NCBI GenBank assembly: GCA_905221605.1
Contig: CAJNDS010002762.1
Location: 191,907-255,906 of the forward strand
Length of the DNA: 64,000 nt
Source of the DNA: Symbiodinium natans
Taxonomy: Eukaryota; Sar; Dinophyceae; Suessiales; Symbiodiniaceae
Reading direction: 5' to 3'
Part shown: one piece after another, positions 1 through 45,900 of the stretch
Position numbering within the stretch: the stretch's first letter is position 1
Layout: each line of letters begins with the position of its first letter
Position numbers and translations under genes: made by a program
The notes under the pieces: generated by a model
Seen by the model: the letters and a program-made list of their open reading frames with translations, nothing else
What the model was told of the DNA's origin: nothing
Databases searched by the model: none

Positions 1-29
1 AACATGTGAATATCCCCACAAGCCTGAAC

Positions 30-114
30 CCGAAGGCGTTGACAAAAAGAGGCGTTTGCAGGCTTCGAAGCCAGGCTTCGTCCATGTTGCACGAGCTGTC
101 TAGCTGAAGGGACC
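30..114 (-). CDS. Internal exon, unidentified protein
   Basis: On the minus strand the sequence from 114 down is open in one frame and reads like protein (SLQLDSSCNMDEAWLRSLQ, then TPLFVNAFG). The acceptor is CCCCAG at 115-120, directly abutting a (CCCTAAA)n array on the sense strand. A donor |GTTCAGG follows at 29. The exon starts with two nucleotides of a codon, which fits the single leftover G of both upstream candidate exons (4100-4171 and 2237-2299). No family is recognised. Confidence 0.55.
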
Positions 115-117
115 CTG

Positions 118-139
118 GGGTTTAGGGTTTAGGGTTTAG
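118..139 (+). repeat. (TTTAGGG)n interstitial array
   Basis: Three tandem plant/alga-type telomere units. On the minus strand it forms the 3' end of an intron and abuts the acceptor of the exon at 30-114. Confidence 0.9.
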
Positions 140-1017: not shown

Positions 1018-1110
1018 TATACTGCCCTTAGAACCTTAAAAAAAATAGAAATCTTGAATATCCTCTTGGGTTTTATAAAAACAAAAATAGAAAAAACCAA
1101 GGGGGATATA
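1018..1110. repeat. Short inverted-repeat element, family A copy 1
   Basis: About 93 bp. It starts TATACTGCCCTTAGAACC and ends CCAAGGGGGATATA, so the ends are imperfect inverted repeats. A relative lies at 31534-31621, sharing the first 20 bp, the central TATCCTxTTGGGTTT block and the CCAAGGGGG end. It has no coding capacity and looks like a non-autonomous transposon or introner-like repeat. Confidence 0.6.
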
Positions 1111-2236: not shown

Positions 2237-2299
2237 CGGACTCTTCGAGCTCCTCCATGGGCTCCTTTCCCACTTTGCAAGGAATTTCAGTAAAGGGGG
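2237..2299 (-). CDS. Internal exon, acidic protein segment
   Basis: Between an acceptor (CTTTTTAG) and a consensus donor (|GTGAGA) there are 63 nt that encode a Glu-rich segment (PFTEIPCKVGKEPMEELEES). Reading past the donor stays open to a stop at 2184. The exon takes the leftover G of exon 4100-4171 and passes a leftover G to exon 30-114, so it is phase-neutral and could be constitutive or a cassette. Function unknown. Confidence 0.5.
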
Positions 2300-3940: not shown

Positions 3941-4071
3941 CATCAACCTGTTGTGGATTCTAGTTCTGATTCAAGCCTACGACTAGAGTGCAAATAAAAG
4001 CCACCATGGGAGCCAACAAAAAAGCAGAATCATATGAAATCCAAGTCCCACAAAGCCTACCAAGCCCTGAT

Positions 4072-6204: not shown

Positions 6205-6462
6205 ATGCTCAACCCACACACACAGACAGAGAGACAAAGAGGCACACACACACACACACAGAGACACAAACACACACAGACACACGAACACAGAGACACA
6301 CACACACGTCACAGACACAGACAGACACGGAGACAGACACACAGACAGACACACACACACACACACAAACACAGTCAGAGACAGAGGCACACACACACAG
6401 AGGTACACACACACACACACACACCCACCCCCACACGCACCCGCACCCGCACGCACTCGCAC

Positions 6463-6495
<33 letters not shown>

Positions 6496-6830
6496 CACAC
6501 ACACACACACACATACACACACATATACACACACAACACACATACACACATTCACAAATACACACATACACACATACAGACATACATACATACATACATA
6601 CACAAAGAAGCAGACACAGGTCACAGACACAGACACAGGCAGACTGAAACAGAGACACACACACACAGACGATGGTCACAGACACAGACAGACACAGAAG
6701 AGAGAGACACACACGCACACAGAGACACCATACATAAAGACGGACACAGACACACAGGTCACGGTCAGACAGAGACAGAGATGCACACACGCATGCGCAC
6801 GCGCACACGCACGGGCACACGCTAAAAAAA
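6205..6830 (+). repeat. (CA)n-rich microsatellite
   Basis: About 600 bp of CACACA interspersed with CAGA and CATA units. It produces long, meaningless Thr/His or Cys/Val open frames in all phases. Confidence 0.95.
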
Positions 6831-7493: not shown

Positions 7494-7499
7494 CTGACG

Positions 7500-9660: not shown

Positions 9661-9664
9661 ACAC

Positions 9665-10285: not shown

Positions 10286-10745
10286 CTGCAGCAAGCTCGG
10301 CACTAGGAGCAATCGATCCTGATGTCTTAGTTTCTTGCTCTATGGGGTCCCGGGGTCCCTTTCGACCTCCGGAGGCCAGGTGAAGTTGAGAGTGGGAAAT
10401 TCCTGAGGAGCAGAGCTGGTTCCCTTCTTCCATTCCTTGGCTTCATCAATGTCACACCCTGCAATTCCTCGTGCTGAGGCCACTTGGAGGTTTAAGACTT
10501 CGGTCTACTTTCACTTTCAGTCCAATCCCCGCATCTGAACCTGAGCCTGAGCAGCTTGAGCAACTTTATCTGCATCAAAATCCTGGAGCCGTCGTGTCGT
10601 AGAAAACCCAGCGCGCTCCTCTATCGCAGCAGTTCTCTTGGAATAAGCCCTGGTTACAAAACAAAGCCATTCCTCATCGTTAAGCCCACCAACCCAAACC
10701 CATCGAGCCCCCAAACTCAAACCCAAAAAGTCTCACCCCAAACCA

Positions 10746-10857
10746 CCCTAAACCCTATAAACCCTATAAACCCTATAAACCCTATAAACCCTATAAACCC
10801 TATAAACCCTAAACCCTAAACCCTAAGCCCTAAACCCCAAACCCCAAACCCTAAACC
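10746..10857 (+). repeat. (CCCTATAAA)n and (CCCTAAA)n array
   Basis: Seven CCCTATAAA-type units followed by CCCTAAA and CCCCAAA units. On the sense strand this is the 5' end of an intron, beginning at the donor of the exon at 10857-10955. Confidence 0.9.
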
Positions 10858-10955
10858 CAGCGCCTGCCGCTTCCTCTGCTCCTCGGCTGCGATCTCGGCC
10901 CTGGTCGGAAGCCCCAGGGCCTGCCAGAGCTTGTTAAGGGAAAGGAGGGACCCTT
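10857..10955 (-). CDS. Exon enclosed by telomere-like repeats
   Basis: An island between a CCCTATAAA/CCCTAAA array and a TTTAGGG array. The sense strand has acceptor GGTTCCTTAG and donor |GTTTAGGG. The frame reads NKLWQALGLPTRAEIAAEEQ followed by RKRQAL, a clearly helical, protein-like segment. The exon begins with two and ends with one nucleotide of a codon. Function unknown. Confidence 0.65.
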
Positions 10956-10979
10956 CTAAGGAACCTTGGGGGTTCTTTG

Positions 10980-11003
10980 GGGTTAGGGTTTAGGGTTTAG
11001 GGT
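10980..11003 (+). repeat. (TTTAGGG)n array
   Basis: Three units. On the sense strand it lies at the 3' end of the intron upstream of the exon at 10857-10955. Confidence 0.9.
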
Positions 11004-12471: not shown

Positions 12472-12539
12472 TACACCCTAAACCCTAAACCCTAAACCCT
12501 CAACCCTAAACCCTGAACCCTATAAACCCTAAACCCTAC
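12472..12539 (+). repeat. (CCCTAAA)n array
   Basis: About nine degenerate units. On the sense strand it forms the intron 5' end immediately after the exon at 12540-12623. Confidence 0.9.
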
Positions 12540-15661: not shown

Positions 15662-15696
15662 GGAACCCTAAACCCTAAACCCTAAACCCTAAAACC
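15662..15696 (+). repeat. (CCCTAAA)n array
   Basis: Four units ending ACCCTAAAACCC. Confidence 0.9.
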
Positions 15697-15702
15697 CTAT
15701 CT

Positions 15703-15798
15703 CATGGCCTCCGCCATCAAGACTCGATGGTGTGGTCGCATTTGAGCAACGCGCTCGGCTGCAAGCTGGGTCACCTGGCGTTCGCGGCAGGGCAAGAC
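15703..15798 (-). CDS. Exon between CCCTAAA and TTTAGGG arrays
   Basis: The sense acceptor is AACCCTAG inside the array and the sequence continues in phase 0 as CRERQVTQLAAERVAQMRPH then HRVLMAE. The exact donor is unclear (a GC donor at |GCCATG gives the stated end). A plus-strand frame over the same bases is also open, so the strand is inferred from its neighbours. Confidence 0.45.
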
Positions 15799-16356
15799 CT
15801 AGGGTTTGGGGGTTAGGGTTTAGGGTTAGGGGTTTAGGGAGAAAGCCAGCAGAGATGCTGGCCAGGAGCTCTCGATGCCAGACCAGATACCGAATGATGT
15901 GCTCGACTGCACGGAAGAAACTCGACATGCAGAGGATTCAATTTGGAAAACCTACCGGTTTTCAGCTCAAACATGGCATGGAATGAGGCTGAGGTGCTTT
16001 TGATCCCCCAGAAAAAATTTACAAAGTGTTGCCCCAGCACGGTTAGTCACCCATATATGGCCCTCAACTTCAGGGACGCGGAAGCTCCATCGTCAGGGCA
16101 ACATGACTCTTTCGCATACAGCTTCGCGAGGAACCGACAACTTGCCCTGGGCACTTCAGTCCAGAAGCCTGAACTAGACGACACCAATCTTACACCGCGA
16201 CATGAGAAGTGTAGACAGTGTAGGCTGCAGCCTTCCAGTGCAAAGTTGAGATGGTGCAGCCCACTGTGTGCGAAAGCACACAGATTTCGAGTCAACGTCA
16301 GAAACAAGACATACCTTGCGCACCCCACCCCTCGCAGGAGTAATTATCCGTCGTAC

Positions 16357-17405: not shown

Positions 17406-17532
17406 CTGGGGACAAAAACCCTAAACCCTAAACCCTAAACCCTAAACCCTAAACCCTAAACCCTAAACCCTAAACCCTAAACCCTAAACCCTAAACCCTA
17501 ACCCTAAACCCTAAACCCTAAACCCTAAACCC
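17406..17532 (+). repeat. Long (CCCTAAA)n array
   Basis: About 18 units, one of the longest uninterrupted telomere-like arrays in the window. It is internal, not at a sequence end. Confidence 0.95.
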
Positions 17533-17560: not shown

Positions 17561-17615
17561 CCGGAGCCTGTGCTTCCCATCCTTTTCGGGCGGAGAGGTG
17601 GCAAAGGTCCACGGC
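17561..17615 (-). CDS. Exon enclosed by telomere-like arrays
   Basis: Lies in the island between (CCCTAAA)n at 17406-17532 and (TTTAGGG)n at 17641-17713. Acceptor CGCCGCAG, donor |GTACCA. Reads AVDLCHLSARKGWEAQAP, leaving one G. Other frames in the island are open too, but this one has matching splice sites. Confidence 0.55.
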
Positions 17616-17640: not shown

Positions 17641-17713
17641 GGGTTTAGGGTGCTTAGGGAGGGTTTAGGGTTTAGGGTTTAGGGTTTAGGGTTCAGGGTT
17701 TAGGGTTTAGGCT
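17641..17713 (+). repeat. (TTTAGGG)n array
   Basis: About nine units with small interruptions. Together with 17406-17532 it brackets the exon at 17561-17615. Confidence 0.95.
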
Positions 17714-18656
17714 GCTTAGGGTGGACATGTTTTGGGATAGGCGAGTTGTTGAGGAGGGGACGTACGAGAAGAAGAACGGTGGGTCCGGCATGGGCGAAGG
17801 AATTTTCGAGTCCAGGTTGGATCCGAGGCTCAAAGTTTATAAAGCTGCTGTTTGGGGCTTGAGGAGGTCAAGGGCTTGTGCAAAGAAAGCGTAAAAGCCT
17901 CCTGCTGCAGCGCAGCGGGATTTTCCTGGGGCTTCCGCCTATGAACACATCCGAACGCCCTACGCCGCAACTTGATTTTGAGATGCACGGTTTCAGTACA
18001 TCCTATCTAGTCTTGGGGCTGACTTAACCTGGTGCAGAACTGAGACTCGGCCTCAAAATCAAAATCTCAACGTCATCCGTTAAGGGCATGGCCACCTTTA
18101 GTTTCAAGTCTCGTCACCTACACACAACGCTGTGTTGATCGTTAGGTTCCGAGCCACAGATCTGCGGCTCTACTCCAAAAGTATCCCAAACGCAAGAAAC
18201 TCGTGAAGATATTTGCCTTCTCCGCTGCACGGAGCGCCTCGATGTCCTCATACACAGAATACACGGCACAAGCCTCATGAAAGCCCTAAGCCTTCGATCT
18301 GGACTCCGGGCGACTGTGGGAGGGCCGATGTGTTACCAGCAAGAACGTCCGGCGTTGAACACTGCAGGTCCGAAAGAAGCCTAGCTCGCAAGAGTCCAAG
18401 TTTTGCTTAGCAGCTACAGGAACGACTGTCTCGGGTATGGTAGGCTGAAGGTGGCAAAACTGACAAAGTTCTCCAAGTTTTGCTTAGCGGGGGGGGGGGG
18501 GGGTGTTTGCCCAGGGTCCAAAGCTAAGCTTGTCTTAAACATGATTCCAGGAGCCTGATCAGCAACATGTTACTGGCTCTCTCAGTAAATTCGCCTGGGC
18601 ATCCGGCCGACAGGCATCTGAAGCAAGCAGACCATGGCTTCCCCACACCAGACCAA

Positions 18657-24725: not shown

Positions 24726-24764
24726 TTTAGGGTTTAGGGTTTCGGGTTCAGGGTTTAGGGTTTC
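24726..24764 (+). repeat. (TTTAGGG)n array
   Basis: Five units with TTTCGGG and TTCAGGG variants, abutting the acceptor of the exon at 24641-24720. Confidence 0.9.
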
Positions 24765-25163: not shown

Positions 25164-25200
25164 TCCCTAAACCCTAAACCCTAAACCCGAAACCCTAAAC
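25164..25200 (+). repeat. (CCCTAAA)n array
   Basis: Five units; the sense strand begins exactly at the donor of the exon at 25201-25367. Confidence 0.9.
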
Positions 25201-25367
25201 CTGTAGAATCCCAACCCAAAGCCTCCTTCGGAGCTTGGACTTTGACTTTCAAGGGCCTTCAAAGGGACAAGAGGGTCCTGGTCGGGCGAACAAGTGCGGA
25301 CATTTTGGCAGAGAAGCCCAGTGTTCCCGGCCTGCATTTGTCGAGCACGTGCCTCTTGGCCCTTGTC
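25201..25367 (-). CDS. 55-codon exon with ACAG|GTTTAGGG donor
   Basis: Acceptor CCACTGGCAG, donor ACAG|GTTTAGGG. The phase-0 frame DKGQEARARQMQAGNTG continues through CSPDQDPLVPLKALESQSP to the donor without a stop. One of the cleanest exon calls in the first half of the window. Function unknown. Confidence 0.65.
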
Positions 25368-27800: not shown

Positions 27801-27808
27801 TCAAGGGC

Positions 27809-27860
27809 AACCCTAAACCCTAAACCCTAAACCCTAAAGCCAAAACCCTAAACCCTGAAC
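27809..27860 (+). repeat. (CCCTAAA)n array
   Basis: Seven degenerate units, sense strand starting |GTTCAGGGTTTAGGG at the donor of the exon at 27861-27953. Confidence 0.9.
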
Positions 27861-27953
27861 CCAAGGGCCGCCACCGAGGCCACCCGGCCATCTCTGGGCG
27901 CCCGACTTGAACGCGGCTTTCTCGACGTTCCAGCCGTGCCGCTCGAGTCAATC
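27861..27953 (-). CDS. Exon with |GTTCAGGG donor
   Basis: Acceptor TGGTGCTGCAG, donor |GTTCAGGG. Two minus frames are open (AARLERRESRVQVGRPEM and RKPRSSRAPRDGRV); a plus frame is open as well. Coding is likely from GC content and splice signals, but the frame is not settled. Confidence 0.45.
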
Positions 27954-27966
27954 CTGCAGCACCATT

Positions 27967-28122
27967 GCTTAATCCCACAATAATAATGATAGAAACAATA
28001 ATCATGATAGTAATGATGACAACAATAACAGTAATAACAACAATGTTAATAAGAAGAATAAGAATAAGAATTAAAATCATAGAAATTGAAATAACAATGA
28101 TAATCATAATAATCATAGGTAG
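27967..28122 (+). repeat. AT-rich trinucleotide-like tract
   Basis: AATAAT, AACAAT and AAGAAT units over about 150 bp, directly beside the inverted-repeat element at 28135. Confidence 0.85.
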
Positions 28123-28134
28123 CAATGGAAGTAC

Positions 28135-28487
28135 TACAAGCGGGTAGGTTAAGTCACATCTTTGCGTGTGAAGTCACATCTCCCCAGTGACACGCGGCTG
28201 CGAGCGAAGTCACATCATCCCGCGTAAAGTCGCATCACAGAGACGTACGTTGAAGCCTTTCCCCCTATGTGCACGCGCCGCACGCGCGTGTTCTCGACAC
28301 ATATGCAAAATACGCACTTGTCACCGCACGCCTGGGAGGGGAGCACATTTTTGTCAGCGTGAATAAGATTTCTGCTTGGGGGTGCAAGTGGGTTCTGACC
28401 AGTCTTGGAATTCGCGAATCCCCAGTGTGCACGCGCCCGAGATACGACTTTACACAAGAAGATACGACCTAACCTACCCGCTTGTAG
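28135..28487. mobile_element. Non-autonomous DNA transposon with subterminal repeats and target duplication
   Basis: 353 bp. The left end TACAAGCGGGTAGGTTAAGT and right end ACCTAACCTACCCGCTTGTA are inverted repeats. The flanking 8-bp direct repeat is GGAAGTAC (28127-28134 and 28488-28495), perfect. Inside, a 10-bp motif AAGTCRYATC recurs in the same terminal orientation: left at 28151, 28171, 28207 and 28227, and (as complement) right at 28441 and 28461. Such subterminal arrays are typical transposase-binding sites of hAT or CACTA-like elements. No transposase frame is present. Confidence 0.8.
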
Positions 28488-29008
28488 GGAAGTACGAGGG
28501 ATTGGTAGGTCGTGGGAGCTTTGAATTTCAGAGTAGTTCAATTTTAGTCGCAAGGTCTCCAAAGGCCCTGGAAGCCAAACTCCACACAGCGAGCGTAGAG
28601 AACAAAAGTCCTGGGCCGGCAGCCTGCTCGCGTTGGTCATGGTCATGAAGAGCTGCACCTGTGGGCTATTCGAGGCTTCAGAGGCATAGGGGTCCCCAAA
28701 CCTACAATCTTCGGACTCTTACCGCTATACCCTGAACCATTCTTAAGGGTTCCATTGCACAAAGGTGCCTGTAGTACTGTATGCTCTAACTTGGGACACC
28801 AGAATGTGTGGAGCTCGGGGTGCTCGGGGTCTTGGGCCTTCAGGGCTTAGGGTTTCGGTGTGTCGCTGGAGCGACAGGGGACTCTCAAAAGATCCGGCTT
28901 CCCAGCTGCTCAGAAAAGGGACGGCCGAACCATTCTCAGTACCCACAACTCTCAAGGCTGGCACCCTAAGCAAGTCATCCACAAAAAAACAACCCAGTGC
29001 AAGTAGAC

Positions 29009-29090
29009 CTTTGCATGATAAAGATGATCATGGTCTCGTGTTCGTTGACCTCTGCTTTGCCTTTCATCACAGCTGCCATGACATCAGGTG
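29009..29090 (-). CDS. Exon present in a duplicated segment
   Basis: Acceptor TGGCATCACAG, donor |GTCTAC. The frame PDVMAAVMKGKAEVNEHET then MIIFIM is clearly protein-like. The same segment occurs again at 29366-29580 with a one-base deletion that breaks this frame, so this is the intact copy. Confidence 0.55.
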
Positions 29091-29260
29091 CTGTGATGCC
29101 AACACAGAGGGCTCACAAGTTCTCTCTGCGGTGCATTTTGGAGAAACCCGCATGCGGTCCAAGAACACGGGCTCGAAGACGGAGCACCAGCCAGAACGCA
29201 CACATGCGTACCCTACTTAAGTCATCCAGACACATCAGGGTTCAGCAGTAAGTGCCGTAT
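29042..29260. repeat. Tandem segmental duplication, copy 1
   Basis: About 220 bp nearly identical to 29366-29580; spacing about 324 bp. Confidence 0.9.
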
Positions 29261-29580: not shown

Positions 29581-29857
29581 TGGCAGCCTGAGCACTAGCG
29601 AGAGTGCACATATGCGCACACTACTACTTAATCCAGACACGACATGACTCGTGGTTGAGTGAGTTGCTGCTTTGGCCGTCGCCATGCAATGGTGTGCGAG
29701 TCTACAGCCCGAGATGATTGAACGAATGAAAGCATATGAAAACATGGCAAAGCTAAATGTTTGGAGGCGCATGTGGACTGCGCAATGGAATGTTTGGAGC
29801 TCTGAAGACTCAGAGGGCAGGAGTATGGTACAACGTTTACCTTTGCCCTGCGAGCTC

Positions 29858-30214
29858 CAAAACCCCAAAACCCCAAAACCCCAAAACCCCAAAACCCCAA
29901 AACCCCAAAACCCCAAAACCCCAAAACCCCAAAACCCCAAAACCCCAAAAAAACCCCAAAACCCCAAAACCCCAAAACCCCAAGCCCCAAAGCCCCAAAG
30001 CCCCAAGCCCCAAAGCCCAAAAGCCCCAAAGCCCCAAAGCCCCAAAGCCCCCAAGCCCCAAAACCCCAAAACCCCAAACCCCCCAAAACCCCAAAACCCC
30101 AAAACCCCAAAACCCCAAAACCCCAAAACCCCAAAACCCCAAAACCCCAAACCCCAAAACCCCAAAACCCCAAAACCCCAAAACCCCAAAATCCAAAACC
30201 CCAAAACCCTAAAA
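29858..30214 (+). repeat. (CCCCAAAA)n tract
   Basis: About 355 bp of CCCCAAAA units with CCCCAAAG variants in the middle. CCCCAAAA is the telomere unit of spirotrich ciliates, not of the CCCTAAA type used around it. All frames are open (PKTPKPQN or GFWGFGVL) and are artefacts. Confidence 0.95.
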
Positions 30215-30565
30215 CGTTGTAATGCCTACCTGGTTTGGGCTGAGGCTTTGCAGTGGCGAGGATGCGGTGCCCAAGGTCTGCAACGGGGCATGAAGACAAC
30301 TGCTGGAAGATGAAGCTCCCCAGCGTATTAGAAATAGTTTTAATGACGTTGAAAGTTGTGTTAATTTATAGAAAAAGGAAGTAGATTCTGAGGACTTTGC
30401 AACATGTTGCAGCGCAGATCTGTAGCCAATCAGCACGAGTGCCCCGCTAAACCCCCCCCCCCCCCCAAAAATGAATCTAGCCTTCATGTGCAGCATCGAG
30501 ACCTCACTCCCAGATCCAGACTAACCTTATCCCGCCCAAAATCCTAAAGCCCCACATTCTCATGC

Positions 30566-30769: not shown

Positions 30770-32393
30770 TCTAAGCGATTCAGAAGCATCTGTCGCGAGT
30801 GTCGTGTCTCGACAGTGACATTTCTAGAGCCATTGCGGCTCTTTTCAACGATTTGTGTGTTCTGGAATCAGTTTACGGTCCTAGAAGTGAGTTGTGTGTG
30901 TTCTAGTCGTGTTGGGAATCCTTTGTGACTTCTCAAGTCGTGCATTCCAACACGCTTCAACCAGAGATGACTTCTGAATTTACTTGCGGCCATACCCTGG
31001 CTGACAATGTCCTTTCATGTCAACCAAGCTAAACCAATTCTAAGCCTCCAGTTTAGAGCTTAATTAGAGTTCGGGTCGCACCTTAAAGGAGCCTGCTGCA
31101 GACAGACGACCGAGTGCCCTGCACGCAGCTTTGCTCGAGGCGCTTCATCAACGGCCTCATCCCATCTGTCTGAATCTGTCTTATCTGCCGAACTTGTGAA
31201 ACAGCGCAACTGCATCCGCACACACTACCTTAAGCTCTGCAAACGTTGAGGGCTTCGATGGCCCCAAGCGACAGGGAAATACCAGGGCTCTTGTCGGTTT
31301 GAGGTCCTTAACCGCAGTGTGTTGGGCCGTTGGGCCTTTCGGGCTCTTTGGGCACTATTGGGTTCAAGGCTTTAAGAAAAGAGATTTTAAGATTGTAGAG
31401 CGCTGTTAACATTTGCTATTGAGTGGAGGCGCACACATCGCACTCCTTACGCAACATTTCCGACATGAGGCCTCGCTGCTGCTGCTTCGCCTGCCTCGCC
31501 GACACGATTGCGATCCAGTCAACAACTTGAACCTATACTCCCCTTAGAACCTTAATAAACACAATATTTTAATATCCTGTTGGGTTTGAAAGAAACAAAA
31601 AATACTTCCCAAGGGGGTATGGGAACCTTCACCATATGGAGCTTAACTCGGAAACTGCAGCCATGGGTTGCCAGGGTGGATCTGCTTTTGTGTTAGGTGA
31701 ACGTGTCAGGATATTGCCAGCACCGTCAGTGAAGCTAAGCAAGGGTCCAGCTACTTCTTACTAAAGCTCGAGATCATTCTGCCAGCACGACAACATGCAA
31801 TGTACAAAACCTTGTACTAACCTCGACTGAAAGCGGGGAGCAGGGTTCAACACTGCAGGGTTGTCGGCTCTTGTGCAATGATATCAGTCGAGCACGCTTC
31901 TGCAAAGCGCAAACAAAGTGGCACTCACATCAACTTATAAGACCGCTACAAGCTCATAAAACCATAGCTCGGCCGGTACCAGTTACCAGCAAAGAAGTTC
32001 GGGGTTTCCAGCATGCGGTGAAACTGAGTCCGGTGAACGCAAGCTGACCTTTATGTAAAGCAACCAAGAAAACCGGCCACCATGTAAGTGAGCGAAGCTG
32101 TGCAATCGCAGGTGCCTCTCGGCTGTATACAGCCCGGCGCGATCGAACTAATATGCACGGCAGATAGGTGATGAATCGTGCGACCCTACCTGGAGCCGAC
32201 GACAGCACTATCGGTCACTATCGGAGCCGTGCTCGAGACACTCATGCTGGACCGCGCTGTCACGCCAACATCATTGCTCCCGGAATGGGATACCGTAAAG
32301 CGAACTGCTAAGCAGAATCACCTGAAAAAAGGTGTGAATTTCAAACAACACCTTCGCGAATAGCTTCGAAGCATCGAATGAAGCACCCTGAGC
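30770..32393. other. No gene recognised
   Basis: Mixed sequence containing the family A element at 31534-31621; no exon called. Confidence 0.4.
31534..31621. repeat. Inverted-repeat element, family A copy 2
   Basis: About 88 bp, TATACTCCCCTTAGAACC at the left and CCCAAGGGGGTAT at the right, matching 1018-1110 along its length with indels. Confidence 0.65.
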
Positions 32394-32420
32394 CCTAACC
32401 CTAAACCCTAAACCCTAAAC
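32394..32420 (+). repeat. (CCCTAAA)n array
   Basis: Four units; the sense-strand intron 5' end after the exon at 32421-32511. Confidence 0.9.
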
Positions 32421-32511
32421 CCCAAAATAATCCTCCGCGCCTCCAAAGCGGCCTCGACGGCTGGGCCAAGGACGTCGGCCCCAGCGAGCAGCCGCCGCCT
32501 CACCCCGCAAG
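32421..32511 (-). CDS. Exon enclosed by telomere-like arrays
   Basis: Acceptor AACCCCAAAG, donor |GTTTAGGG. The frame CGVRRRLLAGADVLGPAVEA then ALEARRIIL is strongly helical and GC-rich. The island is bracketed by CCCTAAA on the left and TTTAGGG on the right, the same layout as 10857-10955 and 17561-17615. Confidence 0.6.
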
Positions 32512-32527
32512 CTTTGGGGTTTGTTTG

Positions 32528-32606
32528 TTAGTGTTTAGGGTTTAGGGTTTATAGGGTTTAGGGTCTAGGGTCTAGGGTATAGGGTTTAGGGTTTAGGGTT
32601 TAGGGC
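32528..32606 (+). repeat. (TTTAGGG)n array
   Basis: About ten units with TCTAGGG, TATAGGG and TTATAGGG variants. Confidence 0.9.
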
Positions 32607-33861
32607 GCTCAGAACCGTCCGAGTAACATGCAAAGAGAACCGGCCAACGCAAGCGGGACAGAGCAAAGGCACGGAAGAAGTAGCAAAGTGAAGGCAAGGT
32701 GGTCACTGCTCAAGCCTAAGACTTTCAGAGCCTCTGCATCCGCCGCATCAGCGCAAACAGCATGTCCCAGCGCTCGCCACCGGGTGACCGACCTACAATT
32801 GCTAGAGGTCCAACCTATCGTGCGAGCGCTCCTGCATGCGTTTTCTACACGAACCCCTCTCCTCATCCAGAGACTCTGGTGTTGTTTGCACGTGCGAAAC
32901 CGCAAAAGCTTGCACTCCCGCACCGACTCTAAGGACTTTAGGGGCCGACCAGCCCTCACGGACTTCAAAGGCTACTTTTAAAGTTGAATGGGTGCCGAAA
33001 CCATGCAAACCAAAAAAGAGCCTCGTCATCTTCAAAACTTTCAGGGGACTTTAAACAGCCTCATTAATGGAAATCATTTCACTGGGGAAATCACTGGATG
33101 AGAGCGAGGCCAAACAGCCCATAAGGGTCCTATGCACTTGGGACAATTCAAACGGTCGCTCACATCATGGCTTACCCGAATTGGGATACATAACTAAACC
33201 TCCTCTTACGGGTCAGAGATTCTACCGTGCGGGCCTGGGCTCGAAACTAAAGTTGAAGACTTCCCAAGGTGTTTTTTGAGTGGGGTCTTCAATGATGAAG
33301 ACAACGGGTGCCGAATCTACCTGACTCGGGTCGATTCACGCTGAACTGGTCGAATTTACAGAGACACGCAGATATCTTGGCGCTTAGACCTTCCTGGGGG
33401 TACGTGGGGGACCATATGCATACATATACATATACATACATGCGGAGAAGGGGTACCAGGAGCTCCAGATTAGCGCTCGTGGGTGCGCGAAAGCACGTCC
33501 ACCGGAGCTTGCGGGCTCAAGGAGGCTTCCGCAAGCTACTCGTAAGCGCTCAATGTCAGCAGCCCCAAGCCCCAACAGAATCTCGCTAGTGCTTGGGATC
33601 TAGACTGGGTTTGGGAAGCTATTTTTTGCTCACAAGTGGTGTATGGAACTGAATTTGTCCAGCATGTGTCTTGATCTTGCCTACTGAGGGGATTTAGGCC
33701 TAGACTGCCAGTGTCCACACGTTTGAGGGCGCACAGCCCACTGAGGCAATCCAAACCTCTAGATCCCTCTAAACTGCATTGATCCTCCCACCCCAAAGTC
33801 CAGTGCAACAAGGCGGACATCCCAGACACATGGCCAGGCACCAACAATTGGCACTGGGGAC

Positions 33862-33910
33862 CGGACAGGCTGTCACAAGGGCATTGTAGGTCACCTGGTC
33901 CGCCAGGCAA
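33862..33910 (-). CDS. PPR micro-exon
   Basis: Acceptor AAGTTTCTAG, donor |GTCCCC. Reads CLADQVTYNALVTACP, the helix-A pattern of a PPR motif (xxVTYNALVxAC). 49 nt. Confidence 0.6.
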
Positions 33911-36900
33911 CTAGAAACTTTGAAGTGATAACCACTCACGAAACTTTCGCAGACCTTTGTTGCCGGGATACAGCGTGCTTGGTAGTCGCACTGCTGATGG
34001 GTCCGGGGCAGAAGATGCAGGGAATGCACAGTATGCTCAGAAGCTGTGCAGAGGCCCTCGAATTGAACTTGAGCTACAGAGGGAGTTCTACTGAGGGATC
34101 GGATCAAGGCGCGTTGCCATATCCAGAGTCCCATGCCTTGAGGGCGAGGTGGGGTCTGAAATATAGGAGCCCTTGAGCCCACGGAAGCCTCCATGCCGCA
34201 CTCTTCCACGGGGGTGAGTGCATCAAAGGCGACTGATGTGAAGGACCTTTTCTTTTGGACTGTGGAACCCTTGACTACCGAGACTGTCCGAGCCGACCCC
34301 AACACCTCACATCCCCAAGCCCCACGTCCTAGTCCTACAAACTCTGTGAACTCCGACATGTTCGGCATCAACGCCTTGTCTGGTGCTTCAACTTCGAGCC
34401 TGGGAGGGTGTGGAGAACTACTCCTTCAAAAAACCGGGCAAAATCTGACAAGGGTTGTGTTCTCTTCCCAGCTTTGCATTGCCTCAACTGGCAAAATCAA
34501 CAGGAGCTCCACACTTTCTCATAAGAATGCACAGCACCCAACATGCAGCTCCCACAAAGGGAGGCTTACCAGGATCGCAGGCTTGGGGCTCGGGATTCTA
34601 TTGAAAGAACACCCCCCAAAAGCACTCCAAGAGCATGCCGTAAGACCATTTTGGACCACTCCAAGAGGGCTGTTTAGGGTTTAGGGTCGCCCCCACCCCC
34701 GCAGCCCCGGGCAATGCGCGTTGCGGATGCTTAGGGGGTCGGGTTAGGTCCGGTCTTGGGTTGGACGTTGGTCGCGTCATGGTAGAGCTAAAAGGTTTCA
34801 TGTCGCACAGTTCAGTAGTAGGATTACTAGGTTTCTCCGGGGTCCGGTCGGGGTGGTAGGTTTGACTTCCAGTCGTGGCCCTGGAACCCGGGACGTGGGG
34901 AGGGAAGGAGACCGGGACTGCGCGTTGCAGGATAGCCAGAAGGTATGAGAGGGTCGGCCTTCCCCAACATAGGAACCCGTGTGGGTGGGTAAAGGAGATA
35001 GCCGAAGGCTACAGGCCCGAAGCCTCACCCTATAGGTGGCTTGGGTTCTGAGTAAGGTTTTGGCCCAGAACTGCCAAATGGCAGCCAGCAATCCGTCGGC
35101 CTACTCACCCATCCTAATCCCCTTTAAACCCGTACACAAGTAACGGCAACCGACCCTGGCTCAGAACCTCCACTTGTCTGTGTCTTAAGCATCTTGAGCT
35201 TTCGGCAGCGGAAACGAAGCTACTGCCACAGAGCCCCTGGCCCCAGCGCCAAGGCTTCGCTCAGCCGTCGTGCCTGCCAGGGACGTTTGCTTCACACATG
35301 TTAGTTTGAGGGTTAACGCCTAAATGGTTGAAGGCACAACTCCTTACCAGAAAGTTGTTTTGTCACATGAGCTGCTTACCCTGATTAATTGCAACTCCGA
35401 GGAGTGGCAAAACGATCAACCGAGGCCTGGAGCAATTAAGAGCACGTCATTGTCAGGCGAGTGCATTCTTGTGCTTTAACCCTGAGCCATGTGCTGATAG
35501 TGCAAATAGCAAGTGGCATGTAGTTAATGGACTAACAGGTGCAACTGACTGGGCTCTAGTTACTTTGTGATCTTCTGCTAAGTCATTGCCGAGTTTTCGG
35601 GGTCACAAACTCAACATCTCCAGAACTCCCAAGCCACATTGAAACGCACTGAGCAAGGCAATCTCTCAATCCCAATTTTAGAACACGCCAATGCATTTAC
35701 TCCTACAATTTTCCGCCCTCTCATTCCCAAAGCCCGCAAGTGTGCCTTCGCGCAAGCACTGATGCAAGCGTTGCTGATGGTTAGCAGCTCAGGGCCTGGC
35801 ATACGCACTTGCAGAAGAAGAAAGCATCAGGTACTCCTTCAAGTCTTGGGATATGATGGCCTCAAAGTAAACCGCCTACAGTTGGCACGAGCGAAAACTG
35901 GCAGCGACGCAGTGGTTTTGGTCGCAAACTTTACCATCCTTCATCCCATATGTCCAACATCATAGCTACAAATCCAACATACATAGACCTTAGCTAAACC
36001 CCGGCAGCCTTGCACTCAAATTGAGGACGGGGGCGCCTCGCATCTTTGGCAGGCACCTTCCGCAAATTTGCGATTGAGGCTTTCAGGATTTGAGTTTCAG
36101 GATTGTAGGGGGTCAGGTTGAAGGTGTAAGAAGGTGTAGGGTTTCAGCACTTTAAGGCCAGGGATTCCGGACGTGTCAGTCTTGAGGGGTCTTGTTCCGC
36201 CATGTTCGGAAGAGAATTCAGACCAAGACTGCTTCTCGAACAAAGCGAGGCAAGAAACCGACGTCAAAACGGGACCGGTGCGTTTTGGAAAATCCGGGGA
36301 GTCGTGCATTTGGCTAAGTTTGGATTAAGCCTGCTTCGAACAAGGGAGAGGTCATGGTCCGATGGAACAAGTTCCGAGTGCAAGGTTACGGGCTGGGGCA
36401 GCACTCGCAGATTGTCTGCTTCATTTGCAGCAAATAGATAAGGCACAGCATTGGGTGTTGCTTGGGATTTGGTGTTTCGAGATTGCTGGGATCAAGGAAA
36501 ATGTTTTTTGGGTGTTGCTGGCTGTATGGTAGGCTCGGGAGGCGTAATTTAAGGCAATTCCAACGATCCCGAGTGAACAACATCCTCCACTCCAAGTAGG
36601 ACTACCGGCTCAAGCTTTAGAACGTTGCAAACAACGCTTCGGGCTTCTGTGCTTTCTGCAATCGTACACGAAGCATGAGAAAAAGTGTTCCTGAGCTTCG
36701 AATTAAAAGTCGCACATAACTCATGACAAAAAAATATGTGAATCCCTGACCGCGCAGGGTCCGCCAAAAGTGTAACCTTTACTGGGAAGCCCTTGCAGCT
36801 TCGAGCCCCCTTATGTAGACCAATGAGATAGGGTTTGCGCAGCCCCCGCCAACCGTGAACTCGTTGCCAGCTATATGCCCTTGAGCTTCGAATCCTTTTC

Positions 36901-39900
36901 ACGGACCAATCAGATTTGGCTTGTGCAGCCACAGCTACCCGCACGGGCCTGCAATGCCTCTACCGGAAAGCTCATGTAGAAGCGAGTGAAAGGGCACTTG
37001 TACTGCCCTTTGCATAGCTGTCAGCAGGCATTGCCAACAGGCCCGACAACCGCGAAACGGTTACGGACTGGTTATTGAGAGCCATTGAGAGCCACCTTCC
37101 AACACCGTCGCCCGTCTGTGTCTCGCTGGCGTGCTTAGTCTCCCTGTTCCGTACCACTGGCCTGCTTCTCAAACATCAGAATTCGGCACAGTCGCGCATC
37201 CGAAGCCTGCTTATGCAGGGCGCTTTCCAGCAAACGCCCATCTGAGCCGCCGAGCATGAGCCGCCGATTATCTGGTTGTCCGACAGAGCTTCCCTGGCCT
37301 GCCTATGGAAGCCAAATTCTGGTACAGTCGCCTCCCAAACAGTCTTATGGAGGCCACATGTCGACAATGCTGTCTGCCTTTGGTCCCCCATGCCGTGAGC
37401 CCATCTTGTCGGGTGGGGGAATATGCAAATTTGAATATGTCAGACATGCAAGGGCCCGTGCAAGCACCCTAGTGCTGGCACTGACATTGCCGACAAAGCA
37501 TTATGAGTTGGCACATGCATGCGACAACAATCACAGTGCCGCCCAGCGAGTGCAAACAGTGGCCCGTGCCTCCTTGGCCTGCGTATTAAGGCATCTTTTC
37601 GATACAGCTCTGCTGTTCAGTCCACATTCCGGTACAGTTGCCCGCCTGAGCCTCCTTGGCTTGCTTATTCAGGGAGGATTCCGGTACGGTTGCCCGCCTG
37701 TTGTCCTGAAGGCTGTACTGCCTCAAAGCTGTACTGCCTGCTGTCCTGAGCACGTCGTGTCACATGATGCGAGCCACTCATTCCTGAAATCTACCAGTAA
37801 CAACCCACTTGTCGGATGAAGAACTACAACCTCAAAAGCCCATAAAGCCTGCAACGTCGCGGTCAAATCCTGTTGGTTTTCAAGCTGCAAAGCAGTATGC
37901 TTGCAGCCAAGCACGTTCATTGCTCTAGGGCTTGTGAAGTTTCAGGTGCGCCGGTTGAACTCGTGAAGGCCGGAGCATCGAAACAGCAGGTTCAACCCTC
38001 TCGTGCTGGCGCCTCTCTCGCTGTGAGGCTATCCACAACGCCCAGCCTTGATGCGGGATCTACGGAACCCGCTTTGCCGCCAACGTTTGGTATGTAAGGC
38101 TCTGCTTGAGCATTGATCGCTTGAGTATTCAAACGGTCGGATCGCCTTCATCATGTTTGATCACTGCCTAATACTATGACTGAGGGGAAATTGAGAACAG
38201 TGCGGGAGTGACAAGGCAACAAGGTGATGCCTGAAGGCACGACCGAGGAGGCAGTTTTCACCCCATGCATGAATGGCGCGACACATCTCGCCACATCTAT
38301 ACAATTCTTATCATGCGAACCATGCGGGCTTCAAGCTCGAAACTTCAACGAAACTCCCAAAACGCAACCTGTTGGTACTTTTTTCAACTTAGCCTAAACT
38401 TCGGCGACTCCGGATATGCTTCGCCGAGCATCCAGCACCACTGACTGCGCTTTTCGCAGGCGGAGGCCTTCAGCTCACTGAGGGGTCTTACGTTTAGGGG
38501 TCTTGAACTTGAAGCTCTGATGGACATGCAACGCTTTTTACTAGATGTCTACCAAAGGAAGCGCGTGTCGCAACAGTCGCCTTTGTTGCTTCGCTGAGGA
38601 CTACTTGCTTCTGGTGCGCAGCTGCGTCTGCGGTGTCAGGCGTTCGGGGTCTAGACATTGAATTGAGGCGTCATCCGCTCTCTGCCAGCCAACTGAGCGT
38701 CATGACCGCGGCGTTGAAGGAAACAATGTCGGGCGCTAGCACGAAGTTGCCTGTGGCGGGCCCACACCCACCCCTCTACAGCCTACAAACCCCGAACCCG
38801 ACCCCAATGCGTATTGGATCCACACGCGACTGTAAGTCCATTTAACTCCCACATTCCGGTCCGAAACCCAGCAGATTGAAGCCGAAGCCCGGATTGCAGT
38901 CCCCGTAGCAGCTACAGAGCTGCCGACAGCAAACCTCAAACCACCAGCTCACTGGCATTAGCTGGATGTCGCCCGTTGTTGAGTATCAAATTTAAACTAG
39001 TGCCATCTGAAATCCCTCCCATGCCAGGCGTTTCGCTTTCCAGTTACTTTCCAGCTTGGGGAGGGTCAGGATGCATTTCCGGCTAGCGTGTTCCTTGTGT
39101 TCCTTGTCCTGGGCCTCCAAAGATGCCTCAAGCCTTCTGGAGGTGTCCCGAAATTTGTTCGGATCACTCAGAGGGTTTCGGAGCATGCATATATGGCCCG
39201 TATAGCCCATACAGGGCATGGCACCTAGCCCTGGCTGTGACCCGGACCTGGAAAGCAATACGTTGGGAGATGTGAGCCGTGAACTGGTGGCTGATGGTGG
39301 CTGTGCACCCGGCTCATCATCATCAGAAGTTCGATGGCGAACTCCCAGCGTTGGGCCTCTGCACAAGTTCATGCAGCGACGGAGAGCAGGCAGAGGTGCT
39401 CAAGGCAGAAATCTTCCTGATTTACAGTACGAGCCTTACTAATAATTATATAGGGACCCTAAGGGAATTATTAGTATTTCTTCCGACCCCTTCCGACCCC
39501 TACATTATGCTGATATCGGGCGGGGAACCTTGCTAGTCTAAGTCCGAACTCGTGCCTTCGTGCCTTTTGTGGGTTGCGGAAGGATTTACCGATGTGCTTG
39601 CTGCGTCTCCAAATCAGGGCGAACGAAACGGCCCCTCGGCAAATCAGGGTCCTAAGCGTAACGAGACACAGGGGACTCGAAGCCAGGCCGCCGTGCCTTC
39701 TCGCAGGCGGTGATGGCTGCGTTGAACGCAATAAGGTCCTGGCACAGGAACAATATAGAGATCCCAAATGCCTCCGGTGGGGAAGCCTCCCGTTCCAAAT
39801 TGGGAAACCATGGGAAACCACACATAAGGTAGTTGTGCAAATCACAGCTTAAACCACATGTGGCGCAGGCAAGGGGGCTCAAGATGGTGGCACATGGAAA

Positions 39901-42900
39901 ACAAAAATATTTTGGTGGCGTTGGACGTTGTCTTAGTGGTTTTGATAAGGCTATTCCACTTCTCTGTCAGTCCAAAGTTGAACTACCGTCTGGGGTACCA
40001 TACGGCCTTTCGACAAACAGATAGCCTTGACAGTTGCTCAGTAAGCAACACAGCAAGAGTTGCTGAGCTCTGAACACTCAAGAACAACACTCCAGAAGTA
40101 GAACTACATCAAAACGACAAGCCGAATCAACTTTTTCTGGACCGAAAATTTCAAATAGCTTGTGGCAACAGCAGAATGGTCGCTGTGGTTTTCCAGGGGT
40201 GAAAGCATGGTCTCTCAGCAATACAGCAGAGTTAACACAGAAGTACTGATCATGCTGCTGAGCTCTGAACACTCAAGAACAACACTCCAGAACTAGAACT
40301 ATATCAAAACGACAAGCCAAATCAACTTTTCCTGGACCGAAAAGTGGAAATAGCTTGTGGCAACAGCAGAATGGCCACTGTGGGCCTCAAGGGCCTGAGG
40401 CTTGAGGATGGCTGCCCCTAGATTGGGGTGCTTCTAATTTCTTTAAAGAGGGTCGGGGGGGGGGAGGGGGTGGGTGTTTTTATTCACGCAGTGCAACAGT
40501 GCATGGGATTTTCATCGACTTGGGAACCCGTACTCCAAATCCCACTTGCGCTTCCGTGCCGCGCGCGGTAGCACAAGCGACCCCATCCATAGCACAAGTG
40601 CGCGCTATGGCAACCTGTACTTGCGCCATGGATGTGGTCACTTGCGCTTCCGCGCCGTGCGCGGTAGCACAAGTGAGCTTTGGAGTACGGATTCAGGATT
40701 TGGCAAGTGGCTGAAAACACACTCTTTACAGTGAGTGATTTTGGTTGCCTTGCGCTTATGCGCAGCGCGCGGAAGCACAAGTAGGTGAAAACGGACCATT
40801 TAGAACGAGGAATCTTGGCGGACTTGCGCTTACGCGCGGCGCGCGGAAGCACAAGTAGGTGAAAACTGATCATTTAGAACGAGGAATTTTGGCTGATCTG
40901 CGCTGGGATCACGAGGTTGCACTATCCGACACTTTGGAACGGAGCCTCTCCACCGGAGGCATTTGGGATCTTTAGAACCTTACAAGCTTCGAATCCTGCC
41001 CTAAGAGTGCCCTCTCGCGCCTGTTAAGTTGTCTTTCGAAGTCGCTCACTTGAGTGATTCCCTGCGGATCAATCGCAAAACTTCTTGGCAGGAACTTGCT
41101 GGGTTTCATGTGCCCTCGGGCGATAAGCTCCAGAAGTGAACCGAATGCATGCAGAGGAAAAGGCACACATTCGGCTCTTCTAACCTTTGCAATCATCTTT
41201 GCCCGGAAGCCACTGAGCACCAACTTACCTTTGCAACGGCGCCGGAACTGCCGGAACCAGGGCACTGTCTTGAAGCTCGTCGAGCAGAGCGAAGGCAGCC
41301 TTGCGCTGTCAGCATTGGCGTGCATTGTAAAGGGGATTAGGGGTTTAGGGTTTAGGGGGATTTCTACGAGATTCCTTAAAGGAAAAGCGTTGGTCATGTG
41401 CAAAGACAGCTGCCGAATTACTGTAGCCGTTGATTTTCAAAGCTTCTCACAGTCGAGCGGCCGGCCTGAAACTGCTCTAGCACCAGCTAGTCGGGAACGT
41501 TTGTGCGTTTCCGGCCTTGGGATTTAAAACATCCTTCCAAAAGGTCTGTCGGTGTTTGATCATGACGGTATCCGACGAGACTCAGAAGCAACACAAAAAG
41601 CCCTGAGTTCAAGAGCGGTCGCTTGCGGCAAAGCATCAGTTTTCAGGCGCCGGTTGCTACAGTGTGTTTGTCGCGGCTGCTTTCGAAAGCGGGAGGGATC
41701 GGGAGGGGGTTTCCACAAAGGACGTCTTGGCTGACCCTACGTAAGTCCAAAAAGCTGACCAAAGCCCGAAGCAGGAGCTTGGACCTGACCGGCAATCACG
41801 AAAGCCCAAATGGACCAAAAGCACAATCCTGAGCCTGGTCACGGGTGCTATCCCATCTATAGATATCTATAACTTTGACCCTTTTCCGTCATACTGAGTC
41901 CTCGAAGAAGACAAGGCGCGGATGTTTTTGTGAAGGGGGGTCACGGGTCCACTTAGGCCAACGTAGGCCCACATCTCAGCAGCCTCCCAGAAATGGCCTT
42001 TTGCGCAGGCCTCGGTGGCTCCCAGAGCGTCACGCGTTTCAGAATGGAGATCAGGCACCTTACGGCCCTACCCTGAGCCCTAAACCCTAAACCCTAAACC
42101 CTAAACCCTAAACCCCAATTTTCTTGGGATGTTCCCCCTGGTACTAACAGTCCCTCATCGGGATCCTAATAGGGAGCAACATCCCAAGTCATGCCATTGA
42201 AGAAGGGTGTTTGCTTTCGACTCCAAGTGCATCCCCCCCACTGCAGTGCATGGCAGGTGAAAACTGGTGACGCTGCACCGTCAAGACTTGAAGCTGAAAC
42301 AAACCACAGAACTGCGAAATTCCAGTCCGGGCTCCGAACTGAAATCGCAGCACTGAAACCTCGGTGACTCAGTTCTGCACACCCAAGGAAAAGGATCAAA
42401 AAGTCAAGCTCGAACTTGACCACTATACGGCACTGCACGAGTTTAATTCTGGAAGAGTTTCAGCACGTGCTGAAAGAATGCCCAAACACATTCTCTCTTC
42501 AGCCCAACCTAAGGTACTTGATCAGGATAACCGTATAGAAGAAATTGCCCGCGAATGCCAACACCTATCAGCTGAGGTTTGATATGGTTTGATGAAGATT
42601 TGATTTTTGGGTACACACAGATGCTTTGTGTGGAGGTTGTCAACGGGGGGGCGGAGGCTAACTTGGAGCCCTCTCTGAGAAGAAGCAAAAAACTACCTTA
42701 AGTCTTCTCAGGCCCTCGAGCGATGTGGGGATTTCCCAAACTAGGGGTAAGGGGATCCTATTATTTGGGGATCTACATTGGGGGTCCCCTATATTATTTT
42801 CGTAAGCCCCCATGTATTGGGACATGTACCTCGGGCTGACTCGGGAAGCTCGGGCTGCACCTCCGAGGGGTGCAACCTGAGGGGGCTGGGCTATGTGAGC

Positions 42901-45900
42901 CGCTCAGGCAAGGGCACACAAACACAAGAACATAGAGACGGGCTTACCCTAAAATAACAACCGTGTGGGGTTGATGAGAAAGAAACAGAGTATGACTTGC
43001 ATCTAGTTTCTTTTTTCTTCTTCCTTTGGCCTCCTTTGGCTGGAGTCTCTTCACACATTCACCGAGCGCCTTTCTTATCCGGACTTCTGCCGTAGCGGCA
43101 ACACGCAAGCCTTCCAAACCAACCATGGAAACCAAAAGCATGATCAAGCCGTGTGGCAGACGACATTTGGCTGGATGCCGGGCTGCATGCCTGGGTGACA
43201 GAAGCAGTCCGTTTACGCGCTCCGCGGCCCCCTGCTCCCCCCCCCCCACCGGTGTGGCTGTGGGTTTGGGGCTTAGAGTTCTAGGCTCTAGGGGTTTAAG
43301 GTCTTAGGGCTTAGCTCTTTTCAGTTTTGGGGCTTTCGGGTCATGATCGTCTAGGTACTCCTTCCCCCTCCCCCCCCACCTCTTCAGGCATGCGGTTTTA
43401 GGGGTTAGGCTAGGGTTCGACTTCAAGGCTTCTCGTTAAGGGCGGTTTCAGGGCTTGGGGGTTTTGGGGCTTGCAGGGCTTCACTGTTAGGAACTTAGCC
43501 CGGCGGCTCCGGCGCCAGTAGTTTCACGAGTTGTAAAATACCAAATCGATCTCGATCGGAGAAGCGTACGCTGCTTCGCAACCCTTGCTGTCGCAAGTTG
43601 GTACCTCCCATCGTCCCAGGCCCTTGTAGCTCCAACTGGAGAGTTACATGTCAGAAATCCTTGAGCCCCCCAAAACAAACATCCGCCAAGCCCAAGATCC
43701 TGAGACACCGAACAGCTGATAGCGGTCAACATCCCAAAGGCAAGCCCAGCTGCCCTAAACCAAGAAACCCTAAACCCTAAACCCTAAACCCTAAACCCTA
43801 AACCCTAAACCCTAAACCCTAAACCCTAAACCCTAAACCCTAAACCCTAAACCCCCTAAACCTGGGGCAAGGTCGAAGCATCTCCAGCACTTCCAAAGCC
43901 ATCTGAGAAGGGCCGCGTTGGGTTTTGGGGGGTGTCGGGTTGATTGGGGGTTGCTTGGGCTTGAGCAAGTTTCGATGCGTTTTTACTTTTTGGGAGGGCT
44001 GAGGGACTTGCTGAGCAAAAGAGCTTTACAGCCTGGGAGTGAAAGCAACCCTAAGCCACGGTGCATTGAGTGCCCCCCCCCCCCCCCCCGACAGCTGGAA
44101 ACCGCAGTCTCAATGACCCGACCATGATTCACGAATGCCAAGGCCACGAGGTGGCTGGGCCGATTGGAGGTGTTCCTGCGCGTGGTGCCTCTTGCCTAGA
44201 CTTCTACCTAGGACCTATTGGGATGCCCAGAAACTGGAAGACCCAAGCCCTTCAGTTGTGAGCTCCTCCGGGCCGTAACACCTTGCAACCCGCACAAGCC
44301 CACGTGGTCTGCGTGACTGCTCTGAGGGTTGAGGCTTTGTGGAGCTTTCGGGCTGTGCTTTCGGGGAGCCATGGGCTGAGATCTCCTTGCTATGCATTCT
44401 GGATATGGCTTACAGGGCCTTGGGACGCAGTGGGGTGAGGAAAAACCTCGGCCCAGTCTAGGCAAGGAAAGCAACTGCTCCACTCAACACTCATGCGAAG
44501 GAACCCTGAATGACACGGGCCTCCCATTGTGGACTTTTCCCGCACGCGCTGATGACCGAGGTACAAGCGATGACCTCGATCTTTGCGGGTCAGTCCGCGC
44601 ACATCAGAACTTCTACCTCCCTACCAACTTCCCTGGCAAGCGAATTGGACGCTTGGAGCAAAGGCCTTGAGTCTGAGCTACTCTAAACCCTAAACCCTAA
44701 ACCCTAAGCCCTAAACTAGGGGCGGGTGCACTGCAAGCACTTTCAACACGCACGGACAAGCCAAGCGATGGCAAGTGATGTCAAGCCACAGTTCATTTGA
44801 GCGCTTCCCCGTCACCTAGTTCCGAATCCCGAAGCTCACCCAGCAGGTCGATCACAAGACTCCGAAAGCATGTGGTGGGGGGGCTTTGTTTAGGACTACC
44901 TTGCCATGCCAGAATAGTGTACACGTCTTGTGGAAACCTGGCACGTCCCAACAGAGTTCCCTGATGCTGGCAGCCCCACGTCTGGCGACAATCGTCGAGC
45001 AACTGCCTGGACATGCTACATCGAGAGGCGTATGACTTACTCTACTTGACGGTTGGGCATTGCGTTGAATGCCCAGCCCTTAACTAGGAGAGCTGCAGAT
45101 GAAGCCTCTGCAAAGCGCGCAACCACTTTCCATCTGCTTCCACTGCAGTGGCAAAAACTTCGCCACCTGCAATCGGTGGTTTGAACACCAATGATTTGCC
45201 GAGCGACCGATAAGCCGGTTAAACCTCAAGACGGACGGTATTCGGCCTTATCCCGGTACACGACTTGCAGGCAGGAAGCAGAGGAGATTACTGCCGTACA
45301 GGGTGTGGTGGGGGGGAAGTAGCTTGAGACCGAGAATCGGGGCAATCATGTGGCCAAAATGGCCACGGGCACTCGAAGTGAGTCAAAAACAAATAAAATA
45401 ATAAGAAGAAGAACAATAATAATAACAGTAATAGTCATAATGATAATACCCTAAGAAGTGCTAATTGTAAGTCTGTTGGCCAATGCTGACGTCGGTCCGG
45501 CCTCGGCCAGCAGCGCCACTGGAAGCTGCCCATTCTCCGGTACACCTCAGGCAACTCCTTATCACTATCAGTATTCGCCTCGGCTTCCTGCCGAGAAGCG
45601 TCTGGAACAAGCAGACCCGGATCGGGCCTCCTTCCCCTAACCCAACCCTTCCCCCCATACCAAATTTTCTGACGCCACCCCCCCCCCCCCCCCCCGCCCT
45701 GTGGGACCCCCCCCAATCCCTTGGAGGAGCTGCAAACCGATGCCGTGGAGGGTCCCGCTTGTCGGTGGCTCAGGGGGAGTGCCTCAAAAACCCCCCTCCC
45801 ACCCCAACCCCCCCCACCCCTCACCACCCCCCACCCCCCCCCCCCCCCCCCCCACCCCACCCCCCCCCCCCACCCCCCCCCACCCCCGCCCTCACCCCCC

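Follow-up and report, generated by a model that had tools for sequence, protein, structure and literature searches.

Telomere-like repeat arrays flank short exons with a preferred orientation at a Symbiodinium natans locus

What telomere-like repeats are doing beside intron ends, and whether they belong there to the introns or to the exons, is the question raised by a 64,000-nucleotide stretch of the Symbiodinium natans genome (contig CAJNDS010002762.1, positions 191,907 to 255,906; hereafter the window). The dinoflagellate telomere unit is TTTAGGG (PMC11453091). Its doubled form, TTTAGGGTTTAGGG, gave 67 matches on both strands of the window and none in each of 100 dinucleotide shuffles, and 36 telomere-like arrays were delimited with a cut-off of at least 14 matched bases. 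The arrays consist of tandem telomere units at internal sites, like the short interstitial telomeric sequences described elsewhere, many of which are intronic (PMC7215372). Below, C denotes an array that reads CCCTAAA on the sense strand and G one that reads TTTAGGG, so that CG means a C array followed by a G array. In the whole assembly (759 Mb in 2,543 contigs, on which all genome-wide counts were made) the 14-mer was matched 1.79 million times per strand, overlapping matches included. A variant unit, TTTATAGGG, is common to the arrays at 10745-10811, 12475-12538 and 32533-32605, which hints at copying between arrays. The window also contains an array of about 45 copies of the 8-base unit CCAAAACC (29857-30215) and long GT/CA-type arrays at 6217-6822, 55803-57044 and 63627-64000. 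In addition, TTTAGGGx3 was present in 22 IMG/VR contigs (L001-L022), nearly all of them with doubled units in a single orientation.

The exons were defined by homology. A first homologue search with a single aminotransferase exon gave no match; joined exons compared with 5.8 billion proteins returned dinoflagellate transcripts and proteins, and a second search returned relatives with pentatricopeptide repeats (PPR). Exon boundaries were sought by tblastn and then with a purpose-written spliced protein aligner, which gave three genes:

6133-26817, minus strand: gene 1, 42 exons and 41 introns from the spliced alignment of a P0079/P0081 hybrid; its protein ends in a phosphopantetheine-attachment (ACP) domain
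31097-46485, minus strand: gene 3, PPR protein, kept part; 22 of 31 introns kept from the spliced alignment of a P0122/P0138 hybrid
49518-63615, minus strand: gene 2, class III aminotransferase, nearly array-free; PF00202 on the DNA (E 2.7e-12) and spliced alignment

P0079, the homologue of gene 1, carried PF00550 (E 3.9e-9), PPR Pfam families were present in both P0122 and P0138, and alignment of gene 2 with P0001 and with P0002 gave the identical 28 introns. It must be noted that all boundaries are those of protein alignment and that the aligner accepted GT, GC and GA donors only and favoured AG|G acceptors. The first intron of gene 1, whose first exon is uncertain, the last of gene 2 and nine of the 31 of gene 3 were dropped before counting, and a 75-base stretch (L054) was left out; the usable set comprised 89 introns and 86 exons from one locus of one species. 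Among these introns the donor was GC in 63, GT in 18 and GA in 8, and the base after the acceptor was G in 87, counts that lean this way because of the restrictions built into the aligner. In genes 1 and 2, under the same preference for AG|G, this acceptor occurred at 68 of 69 sites and the exon ended in AG at 42 of 69. The introns thus have the GT/GC/GA donors and AG|G acceptors of dinoflagellate spliceosomal introns, though no other donor was allowed. In published Symbiodiniaceae data GC is likewise the commonest donor and AGG is found at most acceptors (PMC10666404). Independent support for the splice sites came from the S. natans protein P0081, which was identical to the spliced window at 285 of 285 residues covering the C-terminal half of gene 1.

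Some traits of the models deserve mention in their own right. P0081 starts with MPDPPFFFSY, which is intron sequence in the window (17791-17762), and the N-terminal half of the protein is absent from it; therefore, the start of this public model is apparently in error. In P0138, from Symbiodinium sp. CCMP2592, the PPR gene and the beginning of gene 1 are joined into one protein (window 26817-29160), which reflects either a conserved gene order or a public model that is a fusion. The first aligned exon of gene 2 is distorted by the GT/CA-type array at 63627-64000. The exons of genes 1 and 2 (median 43 nt, with a median intron of 375 nt) are shorter than the averages of about 100-120 nt given for Symbiodiniaceae (PMC10666404). 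Ab initio gene finding without homology over-predicted exons and did not settle their boundaries, and was dropped in favour of protein alignment because in one run reversed-sequence controls outscored the real strand. A Pfam search of X-coded minus-strand frames from 1 to 44.8 kb (1-15 kb and 15-30 kb in all three frames, 30-45 kb in two) gave nothing above the cut-offs and three sub-threshold matches.

The original prediction had placed nine donors inside or directly at TTTAGGG arrays and seven acceptors after CCCTAAA arrays. When these were compared with the spliced alignments, none of the nine donors was exact: four were 7-39 nt off (10857, true position 10864; 12540, true 12579; 32421, true 32441; 43862, true 43875), two were wrong, with 18752 in mid-intron and 25201 in the 3' part of its intron, and 4100, 27861 and 30614 were outside the kept introns. 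Of the acceptors, 24720 alone was exact, three were 13-43 nt off (15798, true 15774; 32511, true 32498; 7111, true 7068), 23812 and 34669 were wrong, and 114 was outside the models. That the arrays are the splice sites themselves is not supported. The donors are mostly GC, and the arrays sit at a distance from both sites: the six donor-side G arrays begin 5-40 nt after the donor, and the eight acceptor-side C arrays end 5-62 nt before the acceptor.

The predicted polarity of the arrays, that is, G near donors and C near acceptors, stood for one kind of array and was weak for the other. The 89 introns contained 30 arrays, 15 of each orientation. All 15 C arrays were in the 3' half of their intron, eight of them at most 65 nt from the acceptor and none within 45 nt of the donor (permutation p=0.001 for this placement). 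Six of the 15 G arrays were within 45 nt of the donor (p=0.049), and four were within 65 nt, and five within 70 nt, of an acceptor; one G array fills a 164-nt intron and was counted at both ends. The two kinds differed in their position in introns (Mann-Whitney p=0.0018) and, taken together, 14 of 30 were within 65 nt of the end that the rule assigns to them, against 20% expected (permutation p=0.0002), with distance windows (45 and 65 nt) that were picked after inspection of the data. One-sided arrays, as well as two counter-examples, were located in the spliced alignments as follows:

24726-24763, minus strand: C array, one-sided, 5 nt before the acceptor of exon 24720-24658
43753-43862, minus strand: G array, one-sided, from 12 nt inside the intron after exon 43902-43875
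12475-12538, minus strand: G array, one-sided, from 40 nt inside the intron after exon 12623-12579
25165-25201, minus strand: counter-example, G array 28 nt before an acceptor
21655-21685, minus strand: counter-example, G array 46 nt before an acceptor

Gene 2 had arrays in only two of its 27 introns, against 22 of 62 in the other genes, and being nearly array-free it indicates that the arrays are not needed for splicing. The flanks of the arrays gave weak signals, both in GC content (p about 0.02, 20 of 36 positive) and in coding score (p 0.006-0.055 depending on the window, 17-20 of 35 positive).

In these genes the arrays pair around exons rather than around introns. Four of the 86 exons had a C array upstream and a G array downstream, against 0.56 expected (hypergeometric p=0.00046), and the excess persisted when genes 1 and 3 were considered alone (p=0.0019). 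The four exons, defined by spliced alignment, and their arrays are:

17568-17615, minus strand: bracketed exon of 48 nt, gene 1
17641-17722, minus strand: C array ending 25 nt before the acceptor of this exon
17416-17532, minus strand: G array occupying most of the 164-nt intron after this exon
15709-15774, minus strand: bracketed exon of 66 nt with a GC donor, gene 1
15800-15839, minus strand: C array, 25 nt before the acceptor of this exon
15664-15699, minus strand: G array, from 9 nt inside the intron after this exon
10864-10920, minus strand: bracketed exon of 57 nt with a GC donor, gene 1
10983-11003, minus strand: C array, 62 nt before the acceptor of this exon
10745-10858, minus strand: sense TTTAGGG/TTTATAGGG array, from 5 nt inside the intron after this exon
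32441-32498, minus strand: bracketed exon of 58 nt, PPR gene (gene 3)
32533-32605, minus strand: C arrays, the nearer one 34 nt before the acceptor of this exon
32397-32422, minus strand: G array, from 18 nt inside the intron after this exon

In these clearest cases the exon measures 48-66 nt and the island around it about 100-125 nt, and the G-strands of both arrays point outward. The three islands regarded as clearest in the original prediction each hold a homology-defined exon (10920-10864, 17615-17568 and 32498-32441). The array at 15662-15696, considered at that time an exception, obeys the rule, as it begins 9 nt inside the intron after exon 15774-15709; it is regular because a GC donor at 15708 is used.

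Two further proposals concerned the introns, namely that their complementary ends pair in the pre-mRNA and that they arose by insertion of an element with telomere-repeat ends. None of the 89 introns had a G array at its start and a C array at its end, and the complementarity of the two ends of an intron was not above that of swapped introns. The search pattern published for introners asks for 8-20-nt inverted repeats in the terminal 30 nt at each end of the intron and direct repeats of 3-5 nt at the junctions (PMC10666404). None of the 89 introns had an 8-mer inverted repeat shared by the outermost 30 nt of its two ends (swapped introns averaged 1.14), and self-BLAST of the window revealed arrays and a few low-copy local repeats, with no multi-copy intron body among the best 80 of 133 filtered matches; the introns showed neither end inverted repeats of 8-20 nt nor one sequence shared by many of them. 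Therefore, both the pairing and the transposon ideas fail in these genes. Outside the window, 20 islands had a further array at most 1.5 kb to the right, which was a C array in 12 and a G array in 8, an order that leaves room for introns carrying both arrays elsewhere in the genome.

The predicted island order, C array, exon, G array, recurred outside the window and in the genome-wide count. Across 190 kb of the contig that lie outside the window, neighbouring arrays of opposite orientation 60-180 nt apart were in the CG order in 23 cases and in the GC order in five (binomial p=0.0009). These CG islands are coding-like, with a GC content of 0.59 against 0.49 in 150 random stretches (p=4.1e-6) and a mean exon-like codon score of 5.3 against 0.5 (p=2.6e-6). 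The gaps between arrays of the same orientation are also exon-like (mean score 3.8, n=14; gaps in the GC order 1.4, n=5), so that the coding score alone is not decisive for the CG islands. Once data from five further stretches, two of them free of arrays, were added to those of the contig, CG pairs peaked at gaps of 100-120 nt (16 CG, 1 GC-order, 5 CC and 3 GG pairs), and gaps of 180-400 nt comprised 11 GC-order pairs and 1 CG pair. Two CG islands matched light-harvesting proteins, with splice points that were set by eye: C2450:75862-75914, whose arrays lie at a distance of 51 nt on the near side and 46 nt on the far side, and C2450:83917-83987, where these distances are 32 and 4 nt. For PF00504 these islands gave E 3.7e-4, which just misses the Pfam cut-off, and 1.3e-6, which passes it, and one island had a PDB match (E 5.3e-7). 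On C1, several bracketed exons belong to a candidate SDR-like gene, whose adh_short match (E 0.032) misses the Pfam cut-off and which had no PDB support.

In the whole assembly C-N90-120-G occurred 134,342 times and the mirror order, G-N90-120-C, 47,188 times, a 2.85-fold excess. Long array pairs contribute several overlapping matches to these counts, and C-N220-250-G, counted without its mirror, occurred 263,046 times; therefore, the genome-wide result shows order and not spacing. The exact C-N90-120-G pattern had no match in the viral_contigs and genome_contigs collections.

The intron starts carry a wider signal, of which the arrays may be an extreme form. Of all hexamers, GGGGTT showed the strongest enrichment in the first 60 nt of introns (13 occurrences against 0 in mid-intron, n=81) and was retained in array-free intron starts (9 against 0, n=59, family-wise p=0.001). 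In the three genes GGGGTT or TTGGGG was present at 7 of 36, 9 of 24 and 4 of 22 intron starts, against none in mid-intron and 5 of 82 intron ends. Over the last 60 nt AACCCC led the enriched hexamers (11 against 0 in mid-intron, p=0.005); in array-free intron ends the signal was gone (4 against 0, family-wise p=1.0), and the C/A-rich end signal comes from the introns with arrays. The C-skew of intron ends was not significant (p=0.065). The start and end hexamers of genes 1-3 (6133-63615) are exact reverse complements of each other.

Given the polarity and exon bracketing seen at this one locus (89 homology-defined introns, genuine exceptions among them), the best-supported mechanism is that the telomere-like arrays are intronic elements that flank exons and would help to define them, a reading that may be correct and is put forward tentatively. 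Dinoflagellate splice sites are degenerate. With CCCTAAA runs a short way upstream of the acceptor and TTTAGGG runs a short way downstream of the donor, the arrays would help to define very short exons with weak GC, GA or GT donors, the GGG-rich RNA after the donor acting as an intronic splicing enhancer and the C/A-rich RNA before the acceptor serving as a tract or branch-region signal; a similar G/T-rich hexamer would mark the 5' end of array-free introns. G-run intronic splicing enhancers likewise have GGG runs after the donor; the S. natans form differs in that the runs are telomere arrays and GGGGTT words and the dinoflagellate uses GC and GA donors. The arrays have probably grown from G/T-rich seeds, either through addition by telomerase or through slippage, and were probably retained where they were harmless or helpful.

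Among the alternatives, the arrays could be repair scars, left where telomerase heals double-strand breaks in introns by adding TTTAGGG to 3' ends and introns tolerate the product; break sites and splicing tolerance would then set position and orientation, and a bracketed exon would be a fragment capped at both ends and then rejoined. The C-exon-G arrangement would be the geometry of such a telomere-capped fragment, the arrays are hugely abundant, as their genome-wide number indicates, and in mammals the interstitial telomeric repeats originate at double-strand breaks in a single step that leaves the nucleotides in register, TERC sequence pointing to telomerase (PMC7215372). However, scars of this kind predict random placement within introns, and in human the intron share of these sequences is compatible with random insertion (PMC7215372), whereas the S. 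natans arrays cluster near exons and have a preferred orientation. We therefore regard repair scars as an unlikely account of the pattern, although telomerase repair may be the origin of the arrays even if splicing decides their retention. Ciliate telomere-bearing elements also have the C-strand to the left and the G-strand to the right of a segment, but the segment bracketed in S. natans is a single exon and not a transposon.

That the flanking arrays pair with each other in the pre-mRNA and loop out the exon, leading to regulated skipping or exon circles, is improbable. Predicted folds of the four bracketed exons would form 33-103 bp across the exon (MFE -84 to -193 kcal/mol), but complementary repeats trivially pair in this way, the protein alignments retain all four exons (those from gene 1, three in number, are also present in the identical P0081 model), and across-exon complementarity is not raised in array-free introns. 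Improbable to a similar degree is a local accident, in which three genes with array-rich surroundings were sampled and the choice of thresholds inflated the polarity: the genes are few, the distance windows post hoc and the G arrays inconsistent, but the same order was found on the 190 kb outside the window and in sampled contigs, together with the genome-wide excess. Least probable of all is the creation of the introns by introner-type mobile elements with telomere-repeat terminal inverted repeats. Introners do occur among dinoflagellate introns, and their ends carry simple inverted repeats together with short direct repeats (PMC10666404, PMC7789003), but none of the 89 introns has arrays, or an 8-mer inverted repeat, at both ends, the best 80 of 133 filtered self-comparison matches gave no many-copy body, and the inverted pair brackets an exon.

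Among the matches listed in a search of the open-access literature, no title or beginning of an abstract dealt with telomere repeats at dinoflagellate intron ends. To our knowledge, how dinoflagellates recognise 40-60-nt exons amid longer introns has not been settled, and a fixed array-exon-array geometry is a direct, testable signal for the recognition of short exons. The effect of intronic telomere repeats on splicing has been called interesting to test (PMC7215372), and arrays that face away from exons are a new, testable link between telomere DNA and gene structure. Arrays that flank exons suggest what interstitial telomere repeats might do, or at the least how selection might filter them. 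It is possible, if somewhat unlikely, that the arrays constitute a genome-wide exon-marking code in S. natans, in which CCCTAAA upstream and TTTAGGG downstream, at a spacing of about 110 nt, mark very short exons with degenerate splice sites; if so, millions of internal telomere repeats would serve gene expression and would not be debris.
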